From the NCBI GenBank assembly GCA_020725625.1, contig DYET01000019.1:1-50690 (forward strand): 50,690 bases of DNA, read 5' to 3'. The DNA is from Desulfovirgula sp. (GTDB lineage Bacteria; Bacillota; Desulfotomaculia; Desulfotomaculales; Desulfocucumaceae). The position numbers and the translations under genes are program-made. The first letter of the stretch is position 1. Each line of letters starts with the position of its first letter. The notes under the pieces were generated by a model. It was not told the DNA's origin. It made no database searches and saw only the letters and a program-made list of their open reading frames with translations. Positions 14,453-50,339 of the stretch are shown in pieces.

Positions 14453-16042
14453 TTATTGTCTGTGCCTGGCCGGCTCGACGCTGATCCGGCGCCCCTTGAT
14501 GTTCTGCCGGTGCATGTAGCCGATGACGCAGTTGGCCCACTCCTCGGGCACCTCGATAAATGTAAATCTTTCATGAATCCTGATGTCGCCGACCAGGTTC
14601 GCCGGGATTCCGGTCTCGCTGCACAAAATCCGCACCAGTTCCGCGGGCCTGATGTTTTCCGCACGCCCGATGCTTACGAAGAGCCTGACCATCCCGGGCT
14701 TGGCTCCCGTGTCCTTGAGAGCGGCTTCGGCGCTTCCGCCGTCCTGAGGTGCCTCCTCCGGGTCAAAGATCATTTTCAGGGCTGCCGCTGCGATGTCCAC
14801 CGGATTATAGTCATCCAGCAGGGGGTCGATTGCGGTCCTGTAGTATCCCAGCTTGCCTTCCTGAATGACCAGCCGGATTTTTTCCTTCAGCCCCTCCATC
14901 TGGCGCTCGGCGACGTCGGCGGGGCCGGGAAGATATTCCCTGCGGATCCGGGTCTTGGTCAGTTTTTCTATCAGCCTCAGCTGGGCATAGTCCCTGGGCG
15001 TAACCAGGGTAACTGCCACCCCGGCCTTCCCGGCCCTGCCCGTGCGGCCGATGCGGTGCACGTAGAATTCCACGTCCTGCGGCAGGTCGTAGTTTATGAC
15101 GTGGGAGATGTTTTCTATGTCCAGTCCCCGGGCGGCCACGTCGGTGGCCACCAGCACTTCCGCCTGGTTGTTTCTGAACCTCCTCATCACCTGGTTCCTC
15201 TGGTACTGGCTCATGTCCCCGTGCAGCCCGGCCACCGGGTAGGCCCTGGCCTCCAGCCTGGCCACCAGGTCGTCCACACCTCTTTTGGTGCGGCAGAAAA
15301 CGATGGCCTTGGAGACATTCAGCGTGTCCAGGAGCCTGGTCATGGTCTCCAGCTTGTTGCGATCCTTTGTCTCATAGTATACCTGGTCGATCTGGGGAAC
15401 CGTGATGCTCTCGCGGCTTACGGTGACAAGCCGGGGGTCCTTTAGGTAGCTCCGGGCCAGGTCCTCTACCTCTTTGGGGATGGTGGCGGAAAAAAGCAGC
15501 GTTTGCCTGTTTTCCGGCACGGCTTTCAATATCTCCTCCACGTCCTCGATGAAGCCCATATCCAGCATTTCGTCGGCTTCATCCAGCACCACCGTCCCCA
15601 CCCGGTCCAGGTTGAGGGTGCCCCTCCTCAGGTGGTCCAGCAGCCTTCCGGGGGTGCCTATGACCACCTGGACACCCTGTTGCAAGGCCCTGATTTGCCT
15701 GTCGATGGACTGTCCCCCGTATACAGGCAGTGTCCTTACCCTCCGGTAACGGCCGAGACGGGAAATCTCCTCGGCCACCTGGATGGCCAGTTCCCTGGTT
15801 GGGGTCACCACCAGGGCCTGGACGCCCTCCCTCATGTTCACCTTTTCCACAATGGGGATGCCGAAGGCCGCGGTCTTGCCAGTGCCGGTCTGGGCCTGGC
15901 CGATGATGTCCCTTCCCTCGGAGAGCAGGGGAATGGCCCTGGTCTGAATTGGCGTCGGCTCCTCGAACCCCATGTCTGCCAGCGCCTGGGCAACCTTGCG
16001 GCTAATCTTCAAACATCCGAAATCAACATACTCGATAGGCAA
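14453..16042 (-). CDS. DEAD-box ATP-dependent RNA helicase
   Basis: A 529-residue DEAD-box helicase of the CshA/DeaD type. It has an FxxLxxxL-like Q motif with PTPIQ, Walker A AQTGTGKT, PTRELA, GTPGR, DEAD in VLDEADEMLD, SAT, and the domain 2 motifs ATDVAARGLD and HRIGRTGRAG. After the core (about 400 residues) comes a linker and a C-terminal DbpA-like RNA-binding domain (about 445-520: RLFVSIGRAENIRPAELVR). The TTG at 16042 has AAAGGAG 7 bases upstream; a further upstream TTG would read through that site. It probably acts in cold-shock RNA remodelling or ribosome assembly. Confidence 0.93.
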   Translation of the reverse strand: MPIEYVDFGCLKISRKVAQALADMGFEEPTPIQTRAIPLLSEGRDIIGQAQTGTGKTAAFGIPIVEKVNMREGVQALVVTPTRELAIQVAEEISRLGRYRRVRTLPVYGGQSIDRQIRALQQGVQVVIGTPGRLLDHLRRGTLNLDRVGTVVLDEADEMLDMGFIEDVEEILKAVPENRQTLLFSATIPKEVEDLARSYLKDPRLVTVSRESITVPQIDQVYYETKDRNKLETMTRLLDTLNVSKAIVFCRTKRGVDDLVARLEARAYPVAGLHGDMSQYQRNQVMRRFRNNQAEVLVATDVAARGLDIENISHVINYDLPQDVEFYVHRIGRTGRAGKAGVAVTLVTPRDYAQLRLIEKLTKTRIRREYLPGPADVAERQMEGLKEKIRLVIQEGKLGYYRTAIDPLLDDYNPVDIAAAALKMIFDPEEAPQDGGSAEAALKDTGAKPGMVRLFVSIGRAENIRPAELVRILCSETGIPANLVGDIRIHERFTFIEVPEEWANCVIGYMHRQNIKGRRISVEPARHRQ

Positions 16043-16073
16043 AATAACACTCCTTTTACGATCCAAAAACAGG

Positions 16074-16604
16074 TCAGAGACAGAAAAGTCTCCCCGACTC
16101 CTGCTGGCCGTCCTGTCCTTTCAGCAAGTAAAAGTAGAGCATCTCCAGAGCGGCGGCGGCAGTGGCCGTCCTTATTTCCGCCCGGCTGCCCCTGAGGCGC
16201 AGCTCTCTGCAGAGGGTTCCCCAGGGGCCGTCCAGGGCCGCATACACAAGCCCCACCGGCTTGCCGGGAGTCCCGCCGCCCGGCCCGGCAATCCCGGTCA
16301 CAGCCAGCCCGATACTGGTGTTTAAAAGGGTTCTTACCCCCGAGGCCATGGACCGGGCAACCTGCTCGCTGACCGCGCCGTATACGGCCAGTTCTTCAGC
16401 CGGTACGGACAAAACCTTCTCTTTTACCCGGTTGTCGTAGGCCACCACGCCCCCGGAAAAATAGGCCGAACTGCCCGGAATTTCGGTAATCCTGGCCGAA
16501 ATCATACCGCCGGTGCAGGACTCGGCCAGGGCCAGGGACATTCCCCGGCCTTCCAGGAGCCTTCCCGCCAATTCCTCCGGTCTGCCGCCGCAACGGCAAT
16601 CCAT
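16074..16604 (-). CDS. pncC: CinA C-terminal domain (nicotinamide-nucleotide amidase)
   Basis: A 176-residue stand-alone CinA C-terminal (PncC) domain, which deamidates nicotinamide mononucleotide in pyridine nucleotide salvage. Family motifs: LALAESCTGGMISARITEIPGSS split by the active-site region (about residues 24-45), FSGGVVAYDN, YGAVSEQVA, and the loop GIAGPGGGTPGKPVGLVY. The N-terminal MoCF-like domain of full CinA is absent. I chose the ATG at 16604 with GGTGAGGGAA just upstream; a TTG at 16640 is possible. It is separated from the helicase by 31 bases and may be co-transcribed with it. Confidence 0.88.
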   Translation of the reverse strand: MDCRCGGRPEELAGRLLEGRGMSLALAESCTGGMISARITEIPGSSAYFSGGVVAYDNRVKEKVLSVPAEELAVYGAVSEQVARSMASGVRTLLNTSIGLAVTGIAGPGGGTPGKPVGLVYAALDGPWGTLCRELRLRGSRAEIRTATAAAALEMLYFYLLKGQDGQQESGRLFCL

Positions 16605-39890: not shown

Positions 39891-41318
39891 ATGAGAACTT
39901 TTGAGCAGTACTTCGAGGGGCTTAAAAAGATGCGCCCCAACGTCTACCTGGGAGGCAGGATCGTGCCCAGGGACGACCCGGTTTTCCTGCCCGGGATCAA
40001 GGTGATAGGGACGACTTTTGAGCTGGTGAAGGACCCCGGGTACCGGGACCTTTTCACGGCGGAGTCCCACCTCACCGGCAAGACGATAAACCGCTTCACC
40101 CACATTCACCAAAGCCAGGACGACCTGCTGAAGAAGCAGAAGATGACCAGGCTGTACTGCCGTCGGGTGGGCCGCTGCGTCCAGCGGTGCATGGGAGTCG
40201 ACGCCCTGAACGCGCTGTCGGTGGTGACCAGGCGCATGGACGACGACCTGGGCACCGATTATTACAGCCGTTTTGTAAAATACCTGGAGTACTACCAGGA
40301 AAACGACCTGGTGGGCAACGCGGCGCAGACCGACGTCAAGGGCGACAGGAGTTTAAGGCCTTACCAGCAGGACGACCCGGACATGTACCTGAGGGTGGTG
40401 GAGAAGAGAGACGGCGGCATCGTGGTCAGGGGCGCCAAAGCCCACAACACCATCGCTCCATACGCCGACGAGATAATCGTCGTGCCGACCAGGGCCATGA
40501 CCCCCCAGGACGCCGATTACGCGGTGGCCTTTGCCCTGCCGGCAGACACCGAGGGCATGTACCTGGTGTCGGTGGCCCACAACCAGCGGTCCAGAAAGCA
40601 TTTCAAGGCGCCCATCGGGGAGACCGGGACCGCCCATTCCATAACCATTTTCGACAACGTTTTTGTTCCCCGGGAAAGGGTGTTCATGTGCGGCGAAACC
40701 AGGTACGCCGGGCAGCTGGCGGGCCTGTTCGCCACCTACCACCGCCACAGTTACACCGGCTGCAAGCCGGCCCTGACGGATATACTGATGGGCGCCGCCG
40801 CCCTGGTGTCGGAATACAACGGCATTGAAAAGGCCTCCCACGTCCGCGACAAGCTGGCTGAGCTGGTGACGGTGGCCGAATTGGTCTATGCCGCCGGGGT
40901 GGCCGCAGCCGTGAACAGCACCAGGGCTTCTTCGGGAACCCAGGTTCCCGACGTGGTCTATACCAATGTGGGCAGGTACCACGCCGGCGTTCACGTCTAT
41001 CCCGAATTTGAGATTCTGGCCGACCTGGCGGGAGGGCTGGCCGCAACCCTGCCCCTTGAGGACGACTTTGTGGAGCCCACGGTGGGGCCCCTGCTGAACA
41101 AATACATCAAGAGAAAAAGCGGCGTTCCCAGTGAAAAGGTTCACCGCTGCTACAGGCTGATTGAAAACCTGATCGCCTCGGCCCCGGGGGCTGCCTCCCA
41201 GATCAGCGGAATTCACGGAGGCGGGTCGCCGGTGATGGAAAAAATAGCCATCATGGCCCAGTACGACATCGAGGAGAAAAAGGAAATCGCCAAGTACCTG
41301 GCCGGCATCGCCGACTGA
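39891..41318 (+). CDS. 4-hydroxybutyryl-CoA dehydratase family protein
   Basis: A 475-residue flavoprotein of the 4-hydroxybutyryl-CoA dehydratase/vinylacetyl-CoA isomerase (AbfD) family, related to HpaB. In Clostridium aminobutyricum the [4Fe-4S] cluster is held by C99, C103, H292 and C299. Here the equivalents are C96 and C100 (GRCVQRC) and H284 and C291 (YHRHSYTGC), with identical spacing, so the cluster is probably present. This separates it from plain FAD-dependent HpaB hydroxylases. The family converts 4-hydroxybutyryl-CoA to crotonyl-CoA by radical chemistry. AAGGGGG precedes the ATG. Downstream crotonase, dehydrogenase and thiolase genes in the window would finish the route to acetyl-CoA. 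Confidence 0.87.
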   Translation: MRTFEQYFEGLKKMRPNVYLGGRIVPRDDPVFLPGIKVIGTTFELVKDPGYRDLFTAESHLTGKTINRFTHIHQSQDDLLKKQKMTRLYCRRVGRCVQRCMGVDALNALSVVTRRMDDDLGTDYYSRFVKYLEYYQENDLVGNAAQTDVKGDRSLRPYQQDDPDMYLRVVEKRDGGIVVRGAKAHNTIAPYADEIIVVPTRAMTPQDADYAVAFALPADTEGMYLVSVAHNQRSRKHFKAPIGETGTAHSITIFDNVFVPRERVFMCGETRYAGQLAGLFATYHRHSYTGCKPALTDILMGAAALVSEYNGIEKASHVRDKLAELVTVAELVYAAGVAAAVNSTRASSGTQVPDVVYTNVGRYHAGVHVYPEFEILADLAGGLAATLPLEDDFVEPTVGPLLNKYIKRKSGVPSEKVHRCYRLIENLIASAPGAASQISGIHGGGSPVMEKIAIMAQYDIEEKKEIAKYLAGIAD

Positions 41319-41393: not shown

Positions 41394-41585
41394 GTGGAAA
41401 CGTCAGGCAGCCCCCGCAAACCGGGGGACGAGGTTCCGGCCGGAGACCTGTGCGCAGGCTGCGGGGCCTGTGCAGGCCTCTGCCCGTATATATACGCGGT
41501 CAAAAGTCCCTATCTGAAAATCCCGGACGATTACCTGAGGGCGTTTTTCACGGCCGAAGGCAGACTGGCGGCGAACGGCCTGTGA
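41394..41585 (+). CDS. Mini-ferredoxin, 63 aa, single 4Fe-4S motif
   Basis: A 63-residue protein with one [4Fe-4S] motif CAGCGACAGLCP (about residues 20-31) and a C-terminal tail rich in aromatic residues. It is shorter than a normal 2[4Fe-4S] ferredoxin and resembles the N-terminal cluster of larger redox subunits. The GTG at 41394 has TGGAGG 7 bases upstream. Its stop overlaps the GTG of the next gene (GTGA), so the two are translationally coupled. It probably passes electrons to or from the LUD protein or the dehydratase. Confidence 0.7.
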   Translation: METSGSPRKPGDEVPAGDLCAGCGACAGLCPYIYAVKSPYLKIPDDYLRAFFTAEGRLAANGL

Positions 41586-42586
41586 AGGGCGCGGGCCGGC
41601 ACGACCTCGGCCGGAAAATCGGCGGGATCAAGGAAAAGTGCATAAACGACATGGACCGGCTGGCCGGCCTGGCGGAAATGAAACTCAGGGAAAACGGGTT
41701 TATCGTCGAGGTGGCGGAATCCGCCCGCAGGGCTGCGGAATACATAGCTTCCCTGGCGGAAGCAGGCCCCCCGGTCCTCCTGGCCGGGACCGGCGTGGAC
41801 AGGGAACTGGACCTGTACGGGTTTCTGTCGGCCAGGGGCCGGACGGTGGTCGACCCGGGCGAGGCCAACCGCGCCCTGCGCATCCTGGGCCTCATACCCA
41901 GCCACCCCCTTTTCCCCCTGTTTCTCTATGAAGAAAACCAGATATACAAAAGGCTAAAATCCCACTACGGGCCGGAATGGGTTTCCATCGGGGACTGGCG
42001 GGAGATGCACTTCAATCTCCTGGCCTCCGCCGGGACCGGCATCACCGGCTGCACTGCGCTGGCGGCGCAGGAGGGAACCGTTCTAATCACCGAGCAGGAG
42101 GAAAACGCCCATCTCGCCTCCACCCTGCCGCCCGTGCACGTCGTGGTGGCCGGCCTGGACAGGATCGTCCACGACATCGGGGAGGCCCTGCTGGTGGCCA
42201 GGGGGATTTCCTGGTACGGGGCCGGCAGGGCCATGGCCAGGAATATCTTTTTCATCAGCGGCCCCAGCGCCACCGCCGACATCCAGGGGATAACCGTGAA
42301 AGGCATGCACGGCCCCCGGGAGGTGCATGTCATACTGCTGGACAACGGCAGGTCCTCGGCCCGGAACGGTCCCGACAGGGACCTTCTGAAATGCATGGAG
42401 TGCGGGTGCTGCCTCGGGGCATGCCGGGTCTACCGGGAAAGGGGGCCGGTGTTCCCGGAACACAGGGCCGCACCCTTCAACAGCTGCTGGGCCCTGGCCA
42501 GGGGGGGCTATGACGGGGAGTGCCTGGGCTGCGGCAGCTGCGCCGGTTCCTGTCCCCTGGGAATAGCAGCGCCCCTCGGCCGCTGA
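41582..42586 (+). CDS. LUD domain iron-sulfur protein (LutB-like)
   Basis: A 334-residue protein: a LUD domain (about residues 25-255; GTGITGCTALAAQEGTVL and TLPPVHVVVAGLDRIV, the latter shared with the fusion protein at 24803) and two C-terminal [4Fe-4S] motifs, CMECGCCLGAC (about 270-280) and CLGCGSCAGSCP (about 314-325). It stops right after the second motif, so the CCG domains of the longer homologue are absent and no LutA partner is next to it. The GTG start at 41582 overlaps the mini-ferredoxin stop. The role is likely electron transfer linked to 2-hydroxy acid or CoA-ester metabolism. Confidence 0.82.
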   Translation: MKGAGRHDLGRKIGGIKEKCINDMDRLAGLAEMKLRENGFIVEVAESARRAAEYIASLAEAGPPVLLAGTGVDRELDLYGFLSARGRTVVDPGEANRALRILGLIPSHPLFPLFLYEENQIYKRLKSHYGPEWVSIGDWREMHFNLLASAGTGITGCTALAAQEGTVLITEQEENAHLASTLPPVHVVVAGLDRIVHDIGEALLVARGISWYGAGRAMARNIFFISGPSATADIQGITVKGMHGPREVHVILLDNGRSSARNGPDRDLLKCMECGCCLGACRVYRERGPVFPEHRAAPFNSCWALARGGYDGECLGCGSCAGSCPLGIAAPLGR

Positions 42587-42738: not shown

Positions 42739-43155
42739 TCATACCGGCCGGAATTTGAACCCGTACCGGATAACTCCCTCTTCCTCGTAAATCCTCCGGA
42801 AAACGGCCTCCACCTTCATGCCCACGGTTATTCCCTCCTCAGGGGGATCCACCAGCTGGGCTATGATCCTGGGGCCCTCCTCCAGTTCAACCAGGACAAC
42901 GGGGTAACTGCCCTTGCAGCGGGCTTCCTCCGAGAACTCCGGCGGGGCGCCGCCCCCGGCGATAACAGTGTACGAGTATACGGTGCCCCTCCCGCTGAGC
43001 CGCACGCTGTCGAACCCTGTCCCGGTCCGGCAGTACCTGCAGACAGCCTTGGGCGGAAAATTCACCCGTCCGCACGCCGTGCACCTTTGCCCGGCCAGGC
43101 GGTAGCGCTGGGGAACAGTCCGCCGGTACATGGGAATGGATATATGGGCGCCCAT
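42739..43155 (-). CDS. DUF35 (Zn-ribbon/OB-fold) acyl-CoA partner protein
   Basis: A 138-residue protein: N-terminal rubredoxin-like zinc ribbon CTACGRVNFPPKAVCRYC (about residues 25-42), then an OB-fold domain (GRGTVYSYTVI, ARCKGSYPVVLVELEEG). DUF35 proteins pair with thiolase-fold enzymes. Examples are the archaeal thiolase/HMG-CoA synthase/DUF35 channelling complex, the ChsH2 hydratase partner and BbsA with BbsB in benzylsuccinate breakdown. It is the last of a three-gene block with the HMGCS-like and thiolase genes, only 9 bases from the former, so a ternary complex is likely. Confidence 0.88.
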   Translation of the reverse strand: MGAHISIPMYRRTVPQRYRLAGQRCTACGRVNFPPKAVCRYCRTGTGFDSVRLSGRGTVYSYTVIAGGGAPPEFSEEARCKGSYPVVLVELEEGPRIIAQLVDPPEEGITVGMKVEAVFRRIYEEEGVIRYGFKFRPV

Positions 43156-43164
43156 GACATCACC

Positions 43165-44172
43165 TCAGATAATCCTTTTTAGCTTGAGATAGTGGATGTA
43201 GCCGATCTGCCTCTTCTTTTCCAGGAGCGACCCGACCGGTCTCGGGGAGGCAGGGAGCGGGCCGTTCAGGCAAAAGCTCATGGAATGACTTCCGGACCCG
43301 GCCCCGTAAGTACAGACCAGAATTTTTTCACCGGTGCCGGCGCTTTCCAGTGCCCTGCAGAGGCCCAGGAACGGAGTGCAGCACCCTGCGTCGCCCACCA
43401 GGTTGTAAACCAGGCCGTCCCTGGTCTGGTCCTCGCCGAAACCCATTTTTTTGGCCAGGGCCGTGTCCGCCCTGACATCCGCCTGAGGCATCACCAGGCA
43501 CCGGTAGTGGCCCGGTATCCTGCCCATCTTTTCAAGGATTCCCGAAAGCGAAGCGCTTACCGTCTCATTGTATGCCATGGAGGAGTACGCACCTACACCA
43601 ATGTCCCTGACGCCGGTCTCACCGGCTGTCCTGTAGCGCAGGCCCATGAACTCGCCGGCGCGGGAGCACGCTCCTTCAAACTCCAGGCCGGAACCGTCCC
43701 TGGCCAGGACAAAGGCGCAGGCGGCCGCCCCGAAGCCGTGGTCCAGCCCCGACGACGGGCTGGCCTGCGGGGCGTCGGAGACAATCACCAGGGCGTATTC
43801 CCGGTCGGTCTGGTCCAGCAGGCCCAGCGCGGCCAGGAAGGCCTCGGAACCGGCCAGGGCGGAACCTCCGTGATGGCTGGTCAGAACACTGCCGCTCAGC
43901 CCCAGGGCCTCCACCAGGGTACCGGCGATAAATTTTTCCCCGTAGGGAAAATTGGCCGAGGCCAGGGCCAGGACCCCAACCCGGGCCGGGTCGACCCCCG
44001 CCAGGGCGTCCGAGGCCGCCTCCACGGCCATGGTCACCGTGTCCTCGTCTATATCCATGACCGCTTTTTCCTTTATATCGGCGCCGCAGCTTCCCAGGGC
44101 GCTTATATACTCCTCCCTCCTGATGCGCAGGAAGGGGATGTAGGATCCGTAAGACACCACGCTTTTAGCCAT
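43165..44172 (-). CDS. HMG-CoA synthase-like protein lacking catalytic Cys
   Basis: A 335-residue thiolase-fold protein similar to archaeal-type HMG-CoA synthase (SYGSYIPFLRI near the start; YGAGSGSHSMSF, about residues 297-308). At the nucleophile position, where the family has a Cys in an AC-x-AG context, it reads SHHGGSALAG (about 100-109), and the HQPN histidine motif is replaced by MPQADVR. The active site is thus degenerate, suggesting a structural or channel role. The ATG at 44172 overlaps the thiolase stop (TGATG), with GGGAGGGGG upstream. It sits between thiolase and DUF35 genes, the gene set of the archaeal complex. Confidence 0.78.
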   Translation of the reverse strand: MAKSVVSYGSYIPFLRIRREEYISALGSCGADIKEKAVMDIDEDTVTMAVEAASDALAGVDPARVGVLALASANFPYGEKFIAGTLVEALGLSGSVLTSHHGGSALAGSEAFLAALGLLDQTDREYALVIVSDAPQASPSSGLDHGFGAAACAFVLARDGSGLEFEGACSRAGEFMGLRYRTAGETGVRDIGVGAYSSMAYNETVSASLSGILEKMGRIPGHYRCLVMPQADVRADTALAKKMGFGEDQTRDGLVYNLVGDAGCCTPFLGLCRALESAGTGEKILVCTYGAGSGSHSMSFCLNGPLPASPRPVGSLLEKKRQIGYIHYLKLKRII

Positions 44173-45350
44173 CACTGACCCCCTCCCTGATAGATGAAAA
44201 CGGCGGCCGTCCCGCCGGATCCCCCGACATTGTGGGACAGGGCAAGCCTGGCGTTTTTAACCTGCCTGGAGGGTTCACTGGCCTCTCCCCTGAGCTGCCT
44301 GAATATCTCGCAGGCCATCCCGCATCCGGTGGCCCCGATGGGGTGGCCCTTGGCCTTGAGGCCGCCGCTGACGTTGACCGGCAGCCTCCCGCCCAGCTGG
44401 GTGACCCCTTCCTCCAGAAGGTGGTGGGCGCGCCCCTCCTCGCAAAAGCCCAGGTCGGCGTAAGCCAGTATTTCGGCAATGGTAAAGCAGTCGTGGACCT
44501 CGGCAAAGTCTATTTCCCGGGGGGAAACGCCGGCCTGCCTGTATGCCTCCGCGGCCGCCTTCCGGGTGGCGGCCAGGCCGGTGATGGAGTCGCGGTCGTG
44601 AATGGCCAGGTAGTCGCTGGCCGCCCCGAATCCCCTGAGGTATACCGGCCTGTCGGTGAAGTTTGCGGCCATTTTGGCGCTGCACAGCAGAACGGCCGCC
44701 GCTCCGTCACTGGTGGGGCTGCAGTCCCAAACGTTGAACGGGTAGGCTACCGGGGCCCCCTTCAGGGCCTGATCAATGGTGATTTCCCTGCGGAACTGCG
44801 CCTTCGGGTTGTTCACGGCGTGCCGGTGGTTTTTGACCGCCACCATGGACAGGTGTTCCCTTTTCAGGCCGTACTGGTGCATATACCTGGCCGCCATCAG
44901 GGCATAAATCCCGGCAAAGGTGGACCCGGCCAGGCGCTCGTACTCCGTGTCCCCGGACACACCCAGCCAGTACCTCCCCTTGCTGGAGGAAACATCCCGC
45001 ATCTTTTCCACACCGGCGGCCAGAACCAGGTCGAACTTGCCGGAAGCCACCGCGCAGGCGGCGTTGAACAGGGCGTATCCCCCGGAGGCGCAAGCGTTTT
45101 CAACCCTGACGGCGTTGACGCCGGGCAGGCCCACGTGCCCCATGAGCAGCGGGGCCAGCTGCCCCAGCTGAAACCCGCCGCCGGCGCTTAGGCACCCTAT
45201 ATATGCCGCCTGGATCATCCCAGGGTCAAGCCCCCGGTCCACGCTCCGCAGCATCTCAAAATACGCCTGGGCGAACAGCTCCTTGACGCCCAGGTCGGGG
45301 AAGTCACCGTACCGGGTTTGCCCGGCACCGATGATGGCCACGCCTTGCAC
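44172..45350 (-). CDS. Thiolase, SCP-x type
   Basis: A 392-residue thiolase of the sterol-carrier-protein-x/archaeal ACAT type. The nucleophile Cys lies in VENACASGG (about residues 83-91), the HDCFT box replaces the NEAF of classical thiolases, and GHPIGATG holds the catalytic His (about 335-342). The full family length is present. Such thiolases work with DUF35 proteins. Its stop overlaps the HMGCS-like start, and it is separated from the crotonase gene by 63 bases. It probably cleaves or makes a 3-oxoacyl-CoA, perhaps branched or aromatic. Confidence 0.9.
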   Translation of the reverse strand: MQGVAIIGAGQTRYGDFPDLGVKELFAQAYFEMLRSVDRGLDPGMIQAAYIGCLSAGGGFQLGQLAPLLMGHVGLPGVNAVRVENACASGGYALFNAACAVASGKFDLVLAAGVEKMRDVSSSKGRYWLGVSGDTEYERLAGSTFAGIYALMAARYMHQYGLKREHLSMVAVKNHRHAVNNPKAQFRREITIDQALKGAPVAYPFNVWDCSPTSDGAAAVLLCSAKMAANFTDRPVYLRGFGAASDYLAIHDRDSITGLAATRKAAAEAYRQAGVSPREIDFAEVHDCFTIAEILAYADLGFCEEGRAHHLLEEGVTQLGGRLPVNVSGGLKAKGHPIGATGCGMACEIFRQLRGEASEPSRQVKNARLALSHNVGGSGGTAAVFIYQGGGQ

Positions 45351-45413: not shown

Positions 45414-46193
45414 TTACTTGCCTTTGAAATCCGGTTGGCGCTTTTCCAGAAAGGCAGTGGTACCCTCAATCCGGTCCCCGGTGGAGAAGGCAATGGTCTG
45501 GGCGAATTTCTCAAACAAAAGGCCGGAATTGATATCGGTGTTGGCGCCCACGTTGATGGCCGCCTTGGCCAGGCTTACAGCCACCGGCCCCTTGGAGATT
45601 ATCTTTTGGGCCATTTCCCTGGCTGCCGGCAAAAGGTCCTCCGGCTGTTCCACTACCTTGTTGACCAGGCCGATTTCCCTTGCCTCCTGGGCGCTTATAA
45701 TTTCCCCGGTAAAGATCAGCTCCTTGGCCTTCCCTATGCCCACCAGCCTCTGCAGCCTCTGGGTTCCGCCGGCACCGGGAATTATGCCCAGGTTGACCTC
45801 GGGCTGGCCCAGCCTGGACCGGGCCGTGGCAATCCTGATGTCGCAGGCCATGGCCAGCTCGCAGCCGCCGCCCAGGGCAAATCCGTCTATGGCGGCAATC
45901 ACCGGCTTGTCGAGGTTTTCTATGTCGTTTAAAGACTCCTGGGCCTCAGCCCGCAAAACATCCAGGGTCTCGCGCTCCCTCAGGGAGCGGATGTCGGCCC
46001 CGGAGGCGAAGGCCTTGCCGCCGGCCCCGGTGATGATGACCACCCGGACGTCCCGGTCAAAGCGGCAGTCCCTGACGGCGCTCCGTATCTCGGCCCAAGT
46101 CCTGGGGTCAAGGGCATTGCGCACCTCCGGCCGGTTCAGGGTTATCAGAGCGATGTGCCCGTCCTTCTCCAGGAGAATATTTTGAAAATCCAT
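45414..46193 (-). CDS. Enoyl-CoA hydratase (crotonase family)
   Basis: A 259-residue crotonase-fold enzyme. The oxyanion-hole segments are GKAFASGADI (about residues 60-69) and DGFALGGGCELAMACDI (about 103-119). Both catalytic glutamates of true hydratases are present, in GGGCELA and QPEVNLGIIPGAGGTQRL split at about 130-147. It hydrates crotonyl-CoA to 3-hydroxybutyryl-CoA or a related step. The ATG at 46193 follows GGGGGG by about 9 bases and gives standard length; longer readings enter the thiolase gene in another frame. It is co-transcribed with the beta-oxidation genes around it. Confidence 0.94.
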   Translation of the reverse strand: MDFQNILLEKDGHIALITLNRPEVRNALDPRTWAEIRSAVRDCRFDRDVRVVIITGAGGKAFASGADIRSLRERETLDVLRAEAQESLNDIENLDKPVIAAIDGFALGGGCELAMACDIRIATARSRLGQPEVNLGIIPGAGGTQRLQRLVGIGKAKELIFTGEIISAQEAREIGLVNKVVEQPEDLLPAAREMAQKIISKGPVAVSLAKAAINVGANTDINSGLLFEKFAQTIAFSTGDRIEGTTAFLEKRQPDFKGK

Positions 46194-46210
46194 GAGGTCA
46201 ATCCCCCCTA

Positions 46211-47401
46211 TTAAATATTTTCCAAAACAACCGCCATTCCCTGCCCGCCCCCCACGCAGAGGGTGGCCAGGCCCCGGGCCAGGCCCCGGCGCTTCATTTC
46301 GTACAGCAGGGTTACGCAGAGCCTGCAGCCCGTGGCCCCCAGGGGGTGGCCCAGGGCAATCCCGCCCCCGTTGACGTTGACGCGGTTCAGGTCCAGGCCC
46401 AGTTCCCTGATGCAGGCCAGGGCCTGAGAGGCGAAGGCCTCGTTCAACTCGACCAGGTCTATTTCCGCCAGGGAAAGGCTGAGCTTGCCAAGGAGCATTT
46501 TCACCGCCGGGACCGGTCCGATGCCCATGTAACGGGGAGAAACGGCGGCGGCGCTGAAGCCCGCCAGCCTGCCCGCCGGTGCCAGTCCCAGTTTCTTCAC
46601 CGCGCTGCCCGAGGCCAGCACCATTACCGCCGCCCCGTCGTTCCTGCCGCACGAATTCCCGGCCGTAACCGAACCGCCCTGCTTGAAGGCGGGTTTTAAA
46701 CCGGCCAGGACCTCCAGGGTGGTGTCGGGGCGGACGTGCTCGTCGGTGTCAAAGAGGACGGTTTTTTTCCTGCCTTTTATCTCCACCGGGACGATTTCCT
46801 CCCTGAACCTGCCCTCGTTGATGGCGCTGGCGGCCAGCCGGTGGCTGCGCAGGGCGAAGGCGTCCTGGTCCTCCCGGCTGACGTTGTACTTTTCGGCCAC
46901 GTTTTCCGCGGTCATGCCCATGCCCAGGTCCGGGCCGTAGATTTCATTGGGCTGGGCGCCAGGGCCCCCTTCTAGGTTGGAATCGATGAGCTGCACCTGC
47001 CCGTCCCCCCAGCGGGCGTTGCGGATGTAATGGGGTGCCCGGCTCATGTTTTCAGCCCCGCCCACGACAACGACCCCGGCCTCGCCGGAGGCCGCCAGGA
47101 GGTAGCCGCTGTACATGGCCTGCATGGCCGAGGCGCACAGGCGGTTTACGGTGAAGGCCGGAACCTCCTCGGGAAGGCCGGCCCTCAGGGCGGCCACCCT
47201 GGCCATATTGGCCGACTCGGTGCTCTGGCGCACCTCCCCCATGATTACCTCGTCCACCTGGTCCGGTGATATGCCGGCCCTCCTCAGTCCCTCCTTGATC
47301 ACTATCGATCCCAGGTCCCCGGATGTCACCGTGCGGAGTGTCCCGCCGTAACGGCCGATGGCGGTTCGCACCGCGCTGATGATGAAAACATCCTCTTTCA
47401 A
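46211..47401 (-). CDS. Acetyl-CoA acetyltransferase (thiolase II)
   Basis: A 396-residue classical thiolase. It has nucleophile Cys89 in NRLCASAM, NEAFASQA (about 320), GHPLGATG with catalytic His (about 351) and the second Cys in CVGGGQG (about 381). It condenses or cleaves acetoacetyl-CoA. The TTG at 47401 has AAGGAGGG 9 bases upstream and gives the normal N-terminus (KEDVFIISAVRTAIG). It ends 17 bases before the crotonase ATG. Confidence 0.95.
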   Translation of the reverse strand: MKEDVFIISAVRTAIGRYGGTLRTVTSGDLGSIVIKEGLRRAGISPDQVDEVIMGEVRQSTESANMARVAALRAGLPEEVPAFTVNRLCASAMQAMYSGYLLAASGEAGVVVVGGAENMSRAPHYIRNARWGDGQVQLIDSNLEGGPGAQPNEIYGPDLGMGMTAENVAEKYNVSREDQDAFALRSHRLAASAINEGRFREEIVPVEIKGRKKTVLFDTDEHVRPDTTLEVLAGLKPAFKQGGSVTAGNSCGRNDGAAVMVLASGSAVKKLGLAPAGRLAGFSAAAVSPRYMGIGPVPAVKMLLGKLSLSLAEIDLVELNEAFASQALACIRELGLDLNRVNVNGGGIALGHPLGATGCRLCVTLLYEMKRRGLARGLATLCVGGGQGMAVVLENI

Positions 47402-47449
47402 CCCTGAAAACCCTCCTTGTAAAATTAAGCTGTAGAACACAGAAAAAAG

Positions 47450-47502: not shown

Positions 47503-48360
47503 CTATTTATAGTCATAGAACCCCTTGCCGGTTTTCCGTCCCCATTCCTTCTTCAGGTACTTTTCCACGATCAGGGGCGAGGGCCTGTACCTGGGGTCCC
47601 CGGTTTCCTGGTAACGCTCCATGCCTATGTGGTAGGTGAGATCGATCCCGGTCAGGTCCATGAGCCTGAAGGGGCCCATGGGGTATCCCAGGGCGTGAAC
47701 CACGGCCGTGTCGATGTCTTCATAGGAGGCGATGCCCATATCGTACAGGTAGATGGCCTCGTTTTTAACGGCCGATACTATCCGGTTGACCAAAAAGCCG
47801 TAGATTTCCTTTTGCAGCAGGACGGGTATTTTTCCCATTTGCCTGGACACTTCCATGACGGTGCCGGCGGTCTCCTCGGAGGTGTGGGGCCCCTTGACCA
47901 CTTCAACCAGCTTATTGACCAGGGCCGGGTTGAAGAAGTGCATGTTGCAGACCTTTTCCGGCCGCCCCGTGACATCGGCGATTTTGGAGCTGACTATGTA
48001 GGAGCTGTTGGTGGCCAGGATTGCGTGGGGCGGGCATATTTTATCTAGCTGGGCGAACAGCTTCCTCTTTACGTCCAGCTTTTCAATCACCGCCTCGATA
48101 ACCAGGTCGGCGCCCCCCGCCGCCTCTGCCAGGTCCCCCGTGAACGATATCCTGGCCCGGGCGGCCCCGGCCTGATCCCCGGTCAACTTCCCCTTGGCCA
48201 CCCGCTCGGGAAGGTAGGTATCGGCAAAATTCTCGGCCTTGCGTAAAATTTCCCCGTCAATGTCGGTACAGGTGACCGTGTACCCCGCCAGGGCGGCGCT
48301 CAAGGCAATCTGGTGCCCCATGTTTCCGGCTCCCACCACGCAAATGGTCTTAACTTCCAT
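47503..48360 (-). CDS. 3-hydroxyacyl-CoA dehydrogenase (3-hydroxybutyryl-CoA type)
   Basis: A 285-residue short-form 3-hydroxyacyl-CoA dehydrogenase. It has the NAD motif VVGAGNMGHQIA (about residues 7-18), EAVIEKLDVKRKLF (about 89-102), TNSSYIVSS, the catalytic His in NMHFFNPALVNKLVEVV split at about 139-155 with the family Glu-His pair, and the C-terminal GRKTGKGFYDY. It oxidises 3-hydroxybutyryl-CoA to acetoacetyl-CoA. The ATG at 48360 has AAAGGAG 9 bases upstream; GTG and TTG codons just before it are alternatives. It follows acyl-CoA dehydrogenase by about 140 bases. Confidence 0.94.
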   Translation of the reverse strand: MEVKTICVVGAGNMGHQIALSAALAGYTVTCTDIDGEILRKAENFADTYLPERVAKGKLTGDQAGAARARISFTGDLAEAAGGADLVIEAVIEKLDVKRKLFAQLDKICPPHAILATNSSYIVSSKIADVTGRPEKVCNMHFFNPALVNKLVEVVKGPHTSEETAGTVMEVSRQMGKIPVLLQKEIYGFLVNRIVSAVKNEAIYLYDMGIASYEDIDTAVVHALGYPMGPFRLMDLTGIDLTYHIGMERYQETGDPRYRPSPLIVEKYLKKEWGRKTGKGFYDYK

Positions 48361-48500
48361 CACCAAACACTCCTTTGTAAAAATTAAATACCCGGGGGTT
48401 GCAAGCTGCCGTTTGAAGCCATGGGTGTGCGGACGCTTTCAACCAGGTAGACCTCTCTCATCTTTCCAAACCCCCTCGCCGGTGATTATCACGCCGCAGG

Positions 48501-50339
48501 TCAACCGGCCAGGAAGGCCTCTTCAGGGCATTCCAGGGCCGTTGTGTCGGCCTCCCTGATCAGGTCGGCAAGAACATAAACGTTGGGCAGAATACTGTTG
48601 ACAAAATACCTGGCGGAGCATAATTTGCCCGCGTAGTACGAATAATCGGGGTGATCCGGGGCCGTTGCGGCCATTTTCCGCCTGGCCACCAGGGCCTGAT
48701 CCAGTATGGACTCGGCGGCAAAAAGCTGTGCGCAGCAGGAAAGCACCCTGGGAGCGAAAAGCGGAATCAGCCGGCCCTTTTCCGCCATGTTCTGATAGTA
48801 CGAGGCATATATGTCCTTGATTTCATCCACGCAACGGTAAGCCTTTTCCAGTTTGGACATCTCCCTCCCGAACCCTTCCGCACCCCTGTTTTTTTCTATA
48901 AACTCCTTCCTGTCATCCATCCAGTCGGCAAAGGGCCGCCCGTTCTCCATCCGCATCTTGCGGCCCACCAGGTCCATGGCATGGATGAATGACGTCCCCT
49001 CCCAGATGGAGAGAATCTTTACGTCCCGGGCGTACTGGGAGACCGGGTACTCCTCGGTGTAGCCGACACCCCCGTAGACCTGGATGGCCTGCCCGATCAT
49101 GGCCCAGGCGGTTTCGGCGGCATAAGTCTTGATCAGGGGGGTCAGTATGTCCGCCAGCCCCTGGCACCTGGCCGCCTTCACCCCGTCGCGGCCGTGCTCG
49201 GCTATGTCGATATAGTAAAACCCCTTGAAAACCATAGCCCTGATTGCCTCAACCTGGGCCTTCATTTCCATCAGCATTCGCCTTACATCCTCGTGCTTGA
49301 TAATGGGAACCCGGCCGGCCTTGGGGTCGGTGAAGGGACGACCCTGAATGCGCTCGGTGGCGTACCGGGCGGCGAAGTAGTATGCGGCCGCCATCTGGGC
49401 CAGGGCGTTATGCCCGGTCCCGATGCGGGACTCGTTCATCATGTGGAACATCATGGCCAGGCCCTTGGAGATGCCCCGGCTGTCCGGGGGGTCACCCACC
49501 AGGATGCCGCGGCAATTGTCGTTTTCCCCGAAGCTCAGCATCGCCGTGGCCGACGCCTTCAGGCCCATCTTGTGCTCCACCGCGATGCAGGTGACATCGT
49601 TTGGACCCCCGAGGCTGCCGTCGTCGTTTACCCATATCTTGGGCACGATGTAAAGGCCCAGGCCCTTCGACCCCGGTGCCCCGCCCTCGGGCCGGGCCAG
49701 AACCATGTGAATGATGTTTTCCGTCAGGTCTGTTTCGCCGCCGGTGATAAACATCTTGGTCCCCTTGATCTTGTATATGCGGGGGTCCTCGGTGGGGTAG
49801 GCCCTGGTGACGGCGTCCCCGACGTCCGATCCGGCGTTGGGCTCGGTCAGGCACATGGTGCCGCTCCACTTTCCGCTCACCATGTTTTCCAGGAATTTCT
49901 CCTTGTCCCTGTCCGTCCCGAACCTGTAAATCAGGTTGGCCGCCCCGGTGGTGAGCTTTATGTAGGAGGTGAGGGCCGGGCAGGCCGCCATCAGCATTTC
50001 ATTATAGGCCCTGTAAAGGGTCAGGGGCATGATGGCATCCGAGGCCAGGGATTCGTTGGCCGTGCCCCACCCGTTCTCCTGCAGGAATTTGTAGGCCCTG
50101 ACATAACCCTGGGGAACCCTTACCCTGCCGTTTTCAAACTTGAGCCCGACCTGGTCGCCTTCTCTGTTTATCGGGAAGACGACCTCCCTGGCCAGTTTAT
50201 ATACCTCGTTGAGTATGAAGTCCACGTCTTCCGGCCCGTAATTGTCCTTGAACCTGTCGAGGCTGAAGACCTCTCCCATGTCGATCCACTCGTTCAAGAT
50301 GAATTTCAAGTCCCTGACGTCATATACAAACTCCGCCAT
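48501..50339 (-). CDS. Acyl-CoA dehydrogenase (long, DmdC-like form)
   Basis: A 612-residue FAD-dependent acyl-CoA dehydrogenase of the long form with an extra N-terminal segment and a C-terminal extension (about residues 470-612), like DmdC-type enzymes. The FAD/substrate motifs CLTEPNAGSDVG (about 157-168) and KMFITGGE (about 184-191) are present, as are GVGYTEEYPVSQYARDVKI split near 420-440 and the catalytic Glu in WEGTSFIHAMDL (about 444). It would make a 2-enoyl-CoA from an acyl-CoA. It is the first gene behind a near-consensus sigma-54 promoter. GGGAGGGG precedes the ATG. Confidence 0.93.
   Translation of the reverse strand: MAEFVYDVRDLKFILNEWIDMGEVFSLDRFKDNYGPEDVDFILNEVYKLAREVVFPINREGDQVGLKFENGRVRVPQGYVRAYKFLQENGWGTANESLASDAIMPLTLYRAYNEMLMAACPALTSYIKLTTGAANLIYRFGTDRDKEKFLENMVSGKWSGTMCLTEPNAGSDVGDAVTRAYPTEDPRIYKIKGTKMFITGGETDLTENIIHMVLARPEGGAPGSKGLGLYIVPKIWVNDDGSLGGPNDVTCIAVEHKMGLKASATAMLSFGENDNCRGILVGDPPDSRGISKGLAMMFHMMNESRIGTGHNALAQMAAAYYFAARYATERIQGRPFTDPKAGRVPIIKHEDVRRMLMEMKAQVEAIRAMVFKGFYYIDIAEHGRDGVKAARCQGLADILTPLIKTYAAETAWAMIGQAIQVYGGVGYTEEYPVSQYARDVKILSIWEGTSFIHAMDLVGRKMRMENGRPFADWMDDRKEFIEKNRGAEGFGREMSKLEKAYRCVDEIKDIYASYYQNMAEKGRLIPLFAPRVLSCCAQLFAAESILDQALVARRKMAATAPDHPDYSYYAGKLCSARYFVNSILPNVYVLADLIREADTTALECPEEAFLAG

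Follow-up and report, generated by a model that had tools for sequence, protein, structure and literature searches.

Three adjacent genes in the window, the whole 50,690-nt stretch of DNA that we analyzed from the anaerobic bacterium Desulfovirgula sp., probably encode one multi-subunit, CoA-dependent 3-oxoacyl-CoA thiolase that contains a non-catalytic subunit related to HMG-CoA synthase (HMGCS) and finishes short-chain β-oxidation; its substrate, we infer, is most likely acetoacetyl-CoA, used in the cleaving direction. All three genes lie on the minus strand in the order thiolase, HMGCS-like protein and DUF35 protein, and the ORF coordinates given by an earlier sequence-only reading proved exact. 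The SCP2-type thiolase (44172–45350, 392 aa) is the predicted catalytic subunit, the HMGCS-like protein spans 43165–44175 (336 aa, or 335 aa if the ATG at 44172 is used), and the DUF35 protein (42739–43155, 138 aa; PF01796 and PF12172), with a zinc ribbon and an OB fold, is the putative bridging subunit. The HMGCS-like start overlaps the thiolase stop (GTGATG), the DUF35 start lies nine bases beyond the HMGCS-like stop, and a ribosome-binding-like GAGGTGAT precedes the DUF35 ATG. Among solved structures, the archaeal complex 6ESQ is the best match for each of the three proteins. The thiolase matches its counterpart (6ESQ_A) at 7e-89 with 42% identity, the DUF35 protein at 1.6e-26, and the HMGCS-like protein at E=6.8e-32, compared with 2e-28 for PhlA in the sequence search. 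The homology is far beyond chance; the three ORFs, their adjacency and these matches bear out the earlier proposal of a thiolase/HMGCS-like/DUF35 trio in the gene order of the archaeal complex.

Thiolases are enzymes of fat breakdown, and the thiolase of the trio carries the nucleophilic Cys, HDCF and GHP elements of the SCP2 type (Cys87, His286-Asp287-Cys288-Phe289 and Gly335-His336-Pro337) together with Asn374. Its catalytic residues are invariant in 12/12 orthologues, it passes NF004720 (468.9 bits, cut-off 420), and the nucleophilic Cys is present in all 43 aligned thiolase rows, including the partners of fused relatives. The zinc-site residues of the DUF35 protein (Cys25, 28, 39 and 42) are likewise invariant in its 12 orthologues. 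An HMGCS-like protein without Cys and Glu adjoins this intact thiolase and DUF35 protein, which is the plan of complexes of the PhlABC kind.

The HMGCS-like protein lacks all four HMGCS catalytic residues. We aligned it with M. thermolithotrophicus HMGCS (Mth, the numbering reference), S. aureus MvaS, PhlA, chain A of 9VBO and 56 homologues. Glu82, Cys114, His238 (of the HQPN motif) and the triad Asn270 of Mth are replaced by Ala74 (codon 43954–43956), Ala106 (43858–43860), Pro230 (43486–43488) and Asp262 (43390–43392), all on the minus strand; the last position holds Asp in 17/17 members of the clade of the window protein and in PhlA. For PhlA, the alignment places Gly115 opposite the Cys and Cys83 opposite the Glu, and this reproduction of published assignments (PMC6392133) validates it. 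Loss of the nucleophile, already recognized in the sequence-only reading, is confirmed, but the lost Cys lies just after SHHGG (SHHGG-S-A, in the context S-H-H-G-G-S-A-L-A-G-S) and not within it.

Neither Cys nor Glu occupies its catalytic position in any of 59 homologues (56 distinct proteins and three further paralogues from the genome of the window), and we found neither another Cys in the place of the nucleophile nor a homologue that keeps it. The only Cys-bearing match, a KASIII-like protein whose Cys-His-Asn triad is intact, was used as a control. The conserved Cys30, considered as a replacement nucleophile, sits in the N-terminal loop, distant in sequence. Loss of the His is correct for the window protein, but 11 of the 17 clade members retain it at the catalytic position; its loss is local to the window protein and no family trait, so that of the Cys/His pair suggested as a clade marker only Cys is missing throughout. 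Both HMGCS family profiles are missed (TIGR00748, 140.2 bits, cut-off 353; NF003274, 222.5 bits, cut-off 244). Judged by its replaced residues, the subunit is probably non-catalytic as a synthase, which favors the non-catalytic scaffold previously offered as one option.

The homologue search covered sixty relatives, 398 genomes from the phylum and, by tblastn, plasmids; one scan of genome contigs yielded one relative. The order of the trio is identical in 18/18 related loci, usually within a short-chain β-oxidation operon that encodes acyl-CoA dehydrogenases, crotonase, 3-hydroxybutyryl-CoA dehydrogenase, ETF, a CoA-transferase (acetyl-CoA hydrolase/transferase-type) or acyl-CoA ligase, and often a second thiolase. 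Fused or distant homologues have a same-strand adjacent thiolase in 41 of the 42 cases tested. In the tree, the window protein belongs to a supported group of Bacillota proteins without the fusion, which fused haloarchaeal sequences join (98/92); most fused HMGCS-DUF35 proteins stand apart, and PhlA is on another branch. The root is uncertain, and the tree therefore does not decide between one and several catalytic losses. A PhlA-like protein from the same phylum (L071/L092, contig C116 of G332) has a FAGKSGT motif and groups with PhlA (97/82), and no thiolase was found beside it within the 4-kb locus. The genome of the window (G000) encodes five more HMGCS-like proteins (L095–L099, on contigs C20, C34, C79, C160 and C195), each fused to DUF35, adjacent to a thiolase and without the catalytic Cys and Glu. 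At three same-genus loci (L087–L089, in G106, G144 and G178), dS is 0.06–0.15 for the trio versus 0.8–1.8 for the crotonase and dehydrogenase in one genome, which suggests an exchange of the trio or of its neighbors, or else a comparison with a paralogue.

Upstream of the trio on the same strand lie an acyl-CoA dehydrogenase of 612 aa (48501–50339), likely the first gene of the operon, a 3-hydroxybutyryl-CoA dehydrogenase (47503–48366), a second, classical thiolase of the BktB/AtoB type (46211–47440) and an enoyl-CoA hydratase (crotonase; 45414–46193, the C-terminal part of ORF 45414–46652). The two dehydrogenases were assigned from family profiles and related operons, the classical thiolase from family profiles, and the crotonase from family profiles and related operons (median identity of 88% in 10 of them). 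The window operon contains only β-oxidation genes, without a type III polyketide synthase (PhlD); set against the related operons, it is missing the CoA-transferase and one acyl-CoA dehydrogenase, and a BktB-type thiolase is present. Two plus-strand genes lie at lower coordinates than the DUF35 gene: a LUD-domain plus 4Fe-4S protein (41450–42586) that adjoins the trio, with a 60% relative near the trio of locus L042, and an HpaB-family protein (39891–41318) of which a copy, 89% identical, adjoins the L042 trio (14645–16087). The motifs of the HpaB-family protein, CVQRCMG and HRHSYTGCK, presumably resemble those of 4-hydroxybutyryl-CoA dehydratase AbfD.

In the assembly that we propose, all bond breaking would be done by the SCP2-type thiolase, with Cys87 taking the acyl group and the HDCF and GHP residues acting as acid/base. 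The DUF35 protein would serve as a zinc-ribbon/OB bridge, and together with the HMGCS-like chain it would form the wall of the CoA site that the subunits share, and also the oligomer on which the thiolase depends, the HMGCS-like chain doing for the thiolase what PhlA does for PhlC. By analogy to 6ESQ and PhlABC, the three proteins would form a physical complex, in which the dead subunit may be required for thiolase activity; in 6ESQ, CoA is reportedly bound at the interface of all three proteins. The active archaeal HMGCS can pull an unfavorable condensation forward. Cleavage would need no such pull, and HMGCS chemistry could therefore be lost while the chain is kept. Consistent with the thiolase assignment, Cys and Glu are absent throughout the homologues, including the five fused paralogues, and the partner thiolases keep their Cys. 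Against it stand the HMGCS-like site, which is not fully random, and the classical thiolase of the window operon, which leaves no obvious need for the trio in cleaving acetoacetyl-CoA here. In loci L045, L049 and L050 the operon has no thiolase other than that of the trio; a divergent cluster of L045 holds a further SCP2-type thiolase.

An AlphaFold2 model of the HMGCS-like protein, built from 29 sequences (window and genome-locus rows only, with plasmid-derived rows left out), has a pLDDT of 92.3 and a pTM of 0.92 and displays the HMGCS fold. Foldseek ranks 6ESQ first (TM 0.92, 28% identity), followed by PhlA of two species (PhlA TM 0.92), MvaS and MucABC. PhlA is thus the next-best structural match, and similar residue losses occur in PhlA and in the 9VBO (MucABC) chain. 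Both points would fit an enzyme like PhlABC or MucABC, an acyltransferase or C-acylase that transfers an acyl group to a non-CoA acceptor without cleavage by CoA. We regard this function as unlikely: the thiolase fits the archaeal acetoacetyl-CoA thiolase far better than PhlC (8e-35), the genes reside in β-oxidation operons with ETF and CoA-transferase and without a polyketide synthase, and the HMGCS-like protein shares only 29% identity with PhlA, from which it is separated in the tree by lying on another branch.

Ser105 (43858–43863 encode residues 105–106) and Asp262 are invariant in 17/17 clade members, and Cys30 (codon 44086–44088) is found in 15/17; the only explanation offered is that they may serve structure or CoA binding. 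There is a slim chance that the former active site of the HMGCS-like subunit has taken on a new, essential task; it might, for example, bind CoA or the 3-oxoacyl chain via Ser105, Asp262 and Cys30 and so hand the acyl group to the thiolase or regulate it. If true, this would be a general control of thiolases by pseudo-condensing enzymes in Bacillota, Pseudomonadota and haloarchaea. New chemistry with a rebuilt site, in which the His of the relatives, Ser105 and Asp262 would carry out acyl-CoA hydrolysis, decarboxylation or deprotonation, appears improbable. The conservation of these residues and of Cys30 and a dN/dS well below 1 speak for it, but the window protein itself has Pro230 in place of the His, and the HMGCS-like protein is the fastest-evolving subunit. 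The nucleophile position is hypervariable, with ten different residues (T, L, A, Q, I, S, M, V, P or G) in 56 homologues; its occupant is thus not a conserved alternative nucleophile, which counts against the new chemistry at the dead site that had been put forward as the other option.

The trio subunits evolve at different rates. Across 12 orthologues, all-pairs identity has a median of 84% for the thiolase, 77% for the DUF35 protein and 56% for the HMGCS-like protein, and dN/dS, a rough measure here since many dS values are near saturation, is ~0.10–0.20 for the HMGCS-like protein versus 0.03–0.12 for the thiolase. The HMGCS-like protein is therefore the fastest-evolving subunit yet under purifying selection, constrained but relaxed; its gene is no pseudogene, and the constraint is weaker than on the adjoining enzymes. 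Its rate, the highest in the operon, could suggest a decaying remnant that is merely carried along, but this is very improbable: in 18/18 loci the gene is intact, has the correct spacing and keeps its place, and its product has a confidently predicted fold and, in another branch, a stable fusion to DUF35. On dN/dS and conserved gene order, we reject a decaying pseudogene. Gene order and fold like those of the archaeal complex notwithstanding, HMG-CoA synthesis for a bacterial mevalonate-type pathway is ruled out for practical purposes by the loss of all four catalytic residues, scores below both archaeal-type NCBIfam HMGCS cut-offs, the β-oxidation operon, and a genome that carries Dxr of the MEP pathway, has no canonical HMGCS (PF08540) and is therefore apparently not using mevalonate.

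Proteins of this type score near HMG-CoA synthase families and are easily misnamed, and predictions for anaerobic bacteria that take them as a sign of mevalonate chemistry would be mistaken. The family also suggests that the plan of dead HMGCS, thiolase and DUF35, so far seen in two acyltransferases, is widely used in catabolism. The active archaeal HMGCS, the dead relatives that bear the His, the fully dead window protein and the fused HMGCS-DUF35 proteins form a natural series that lets one ask why a thiolase retains an inactive condensing enzyme as its partner.

Thiolase/DUF35 assemblies with a dead HMGCS-like subunit are already known: PhlABC, CsATase and, by the present alignment, MucABC. 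The widespread catabolic branch appears to be unreported in a literature search that was thin on subscription papers; nothing on the trio was found in the Desulfotomaculum literature. In the available portions of a report on acetone-grown Desulfotomaculum, an induced DUF35 protein adjoins a thiolase, and those portions name no HMGCS-like gene (PMC8084838). BbsAB benzoylsuccinyl-CoA thiolase (7PXP), suggested earlier as the comparison, also pairs an SCP2-type thiolase with a DUF35 zinc-ribbon protein in anaerobic β-oxidation, but it has two subunits and no HMGCS-like chain, and the window proteins score far below the NCBIfam cut-offs for BbsA (42.9 bits, cut-off 250) and BbsB (216.5 bits, cut-off 750); PhlABC and MucABC are the direct precedents. 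The steroid aldolases Ltp2-ChsH2(DUF35) and Sal-Shy(DUF35) (6OK1, 9MYR) likewise join a thiolase-fold enzyme to a DUF35 domain, yet they are retro-aldolases with altered thiolase residues and no HMGCS-like subunit.

MucABC of Streptococcus macacae (9VBO, 9VBT) has HMGCS-like, thiolase-like and PhlB-like subunits, and in our alignment Cys, Glu, His and Asn are all replaced in its HMGCS-like chain; identity is only 21%, the name acyltransferase comes from the PDB title, and the literature searched yielded no paper on this complex. The archaeal 6ESQ complex has the same three subunits and is the closest by sequence for all of them and by fold for the HMGCS-like protein, but its HMGCS is active (Cys114, Glu82) and serves mevalonate synthesis, whereas the window trio has a dead site and a catabolic operon. 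The monoacetylphloroglucinol acyltransferase PhlABC of Pseudomonas protegens (5M3K, 5MG5) and Chromobacterium CsATase (9SKH) share the three-subunit assembly, a (A2C2)2B4 dodecamer in the PhlABC kind. PhlA lacks the Cys (Gly115) and the Glu (Cys83), and all three phl genes are needed although PhlC alone is catalytic (PMC6392133); our alignment adds His to Gln and Asn to Asp replacements in PhlA. Unlike the window trio, PhlABC is CoA-free and belongs to an antibiotic biosynthesis cluster that includes the type III polyketide synthase PhlD. Its thiolase subunit has diverged most from 6ESQ (28.9% identity, versus 38.5% for PhlA; PMC6392133), whereas in the window trio it is the HMGCS-like protein that has done so (31%, versus 42% for the thiolase).
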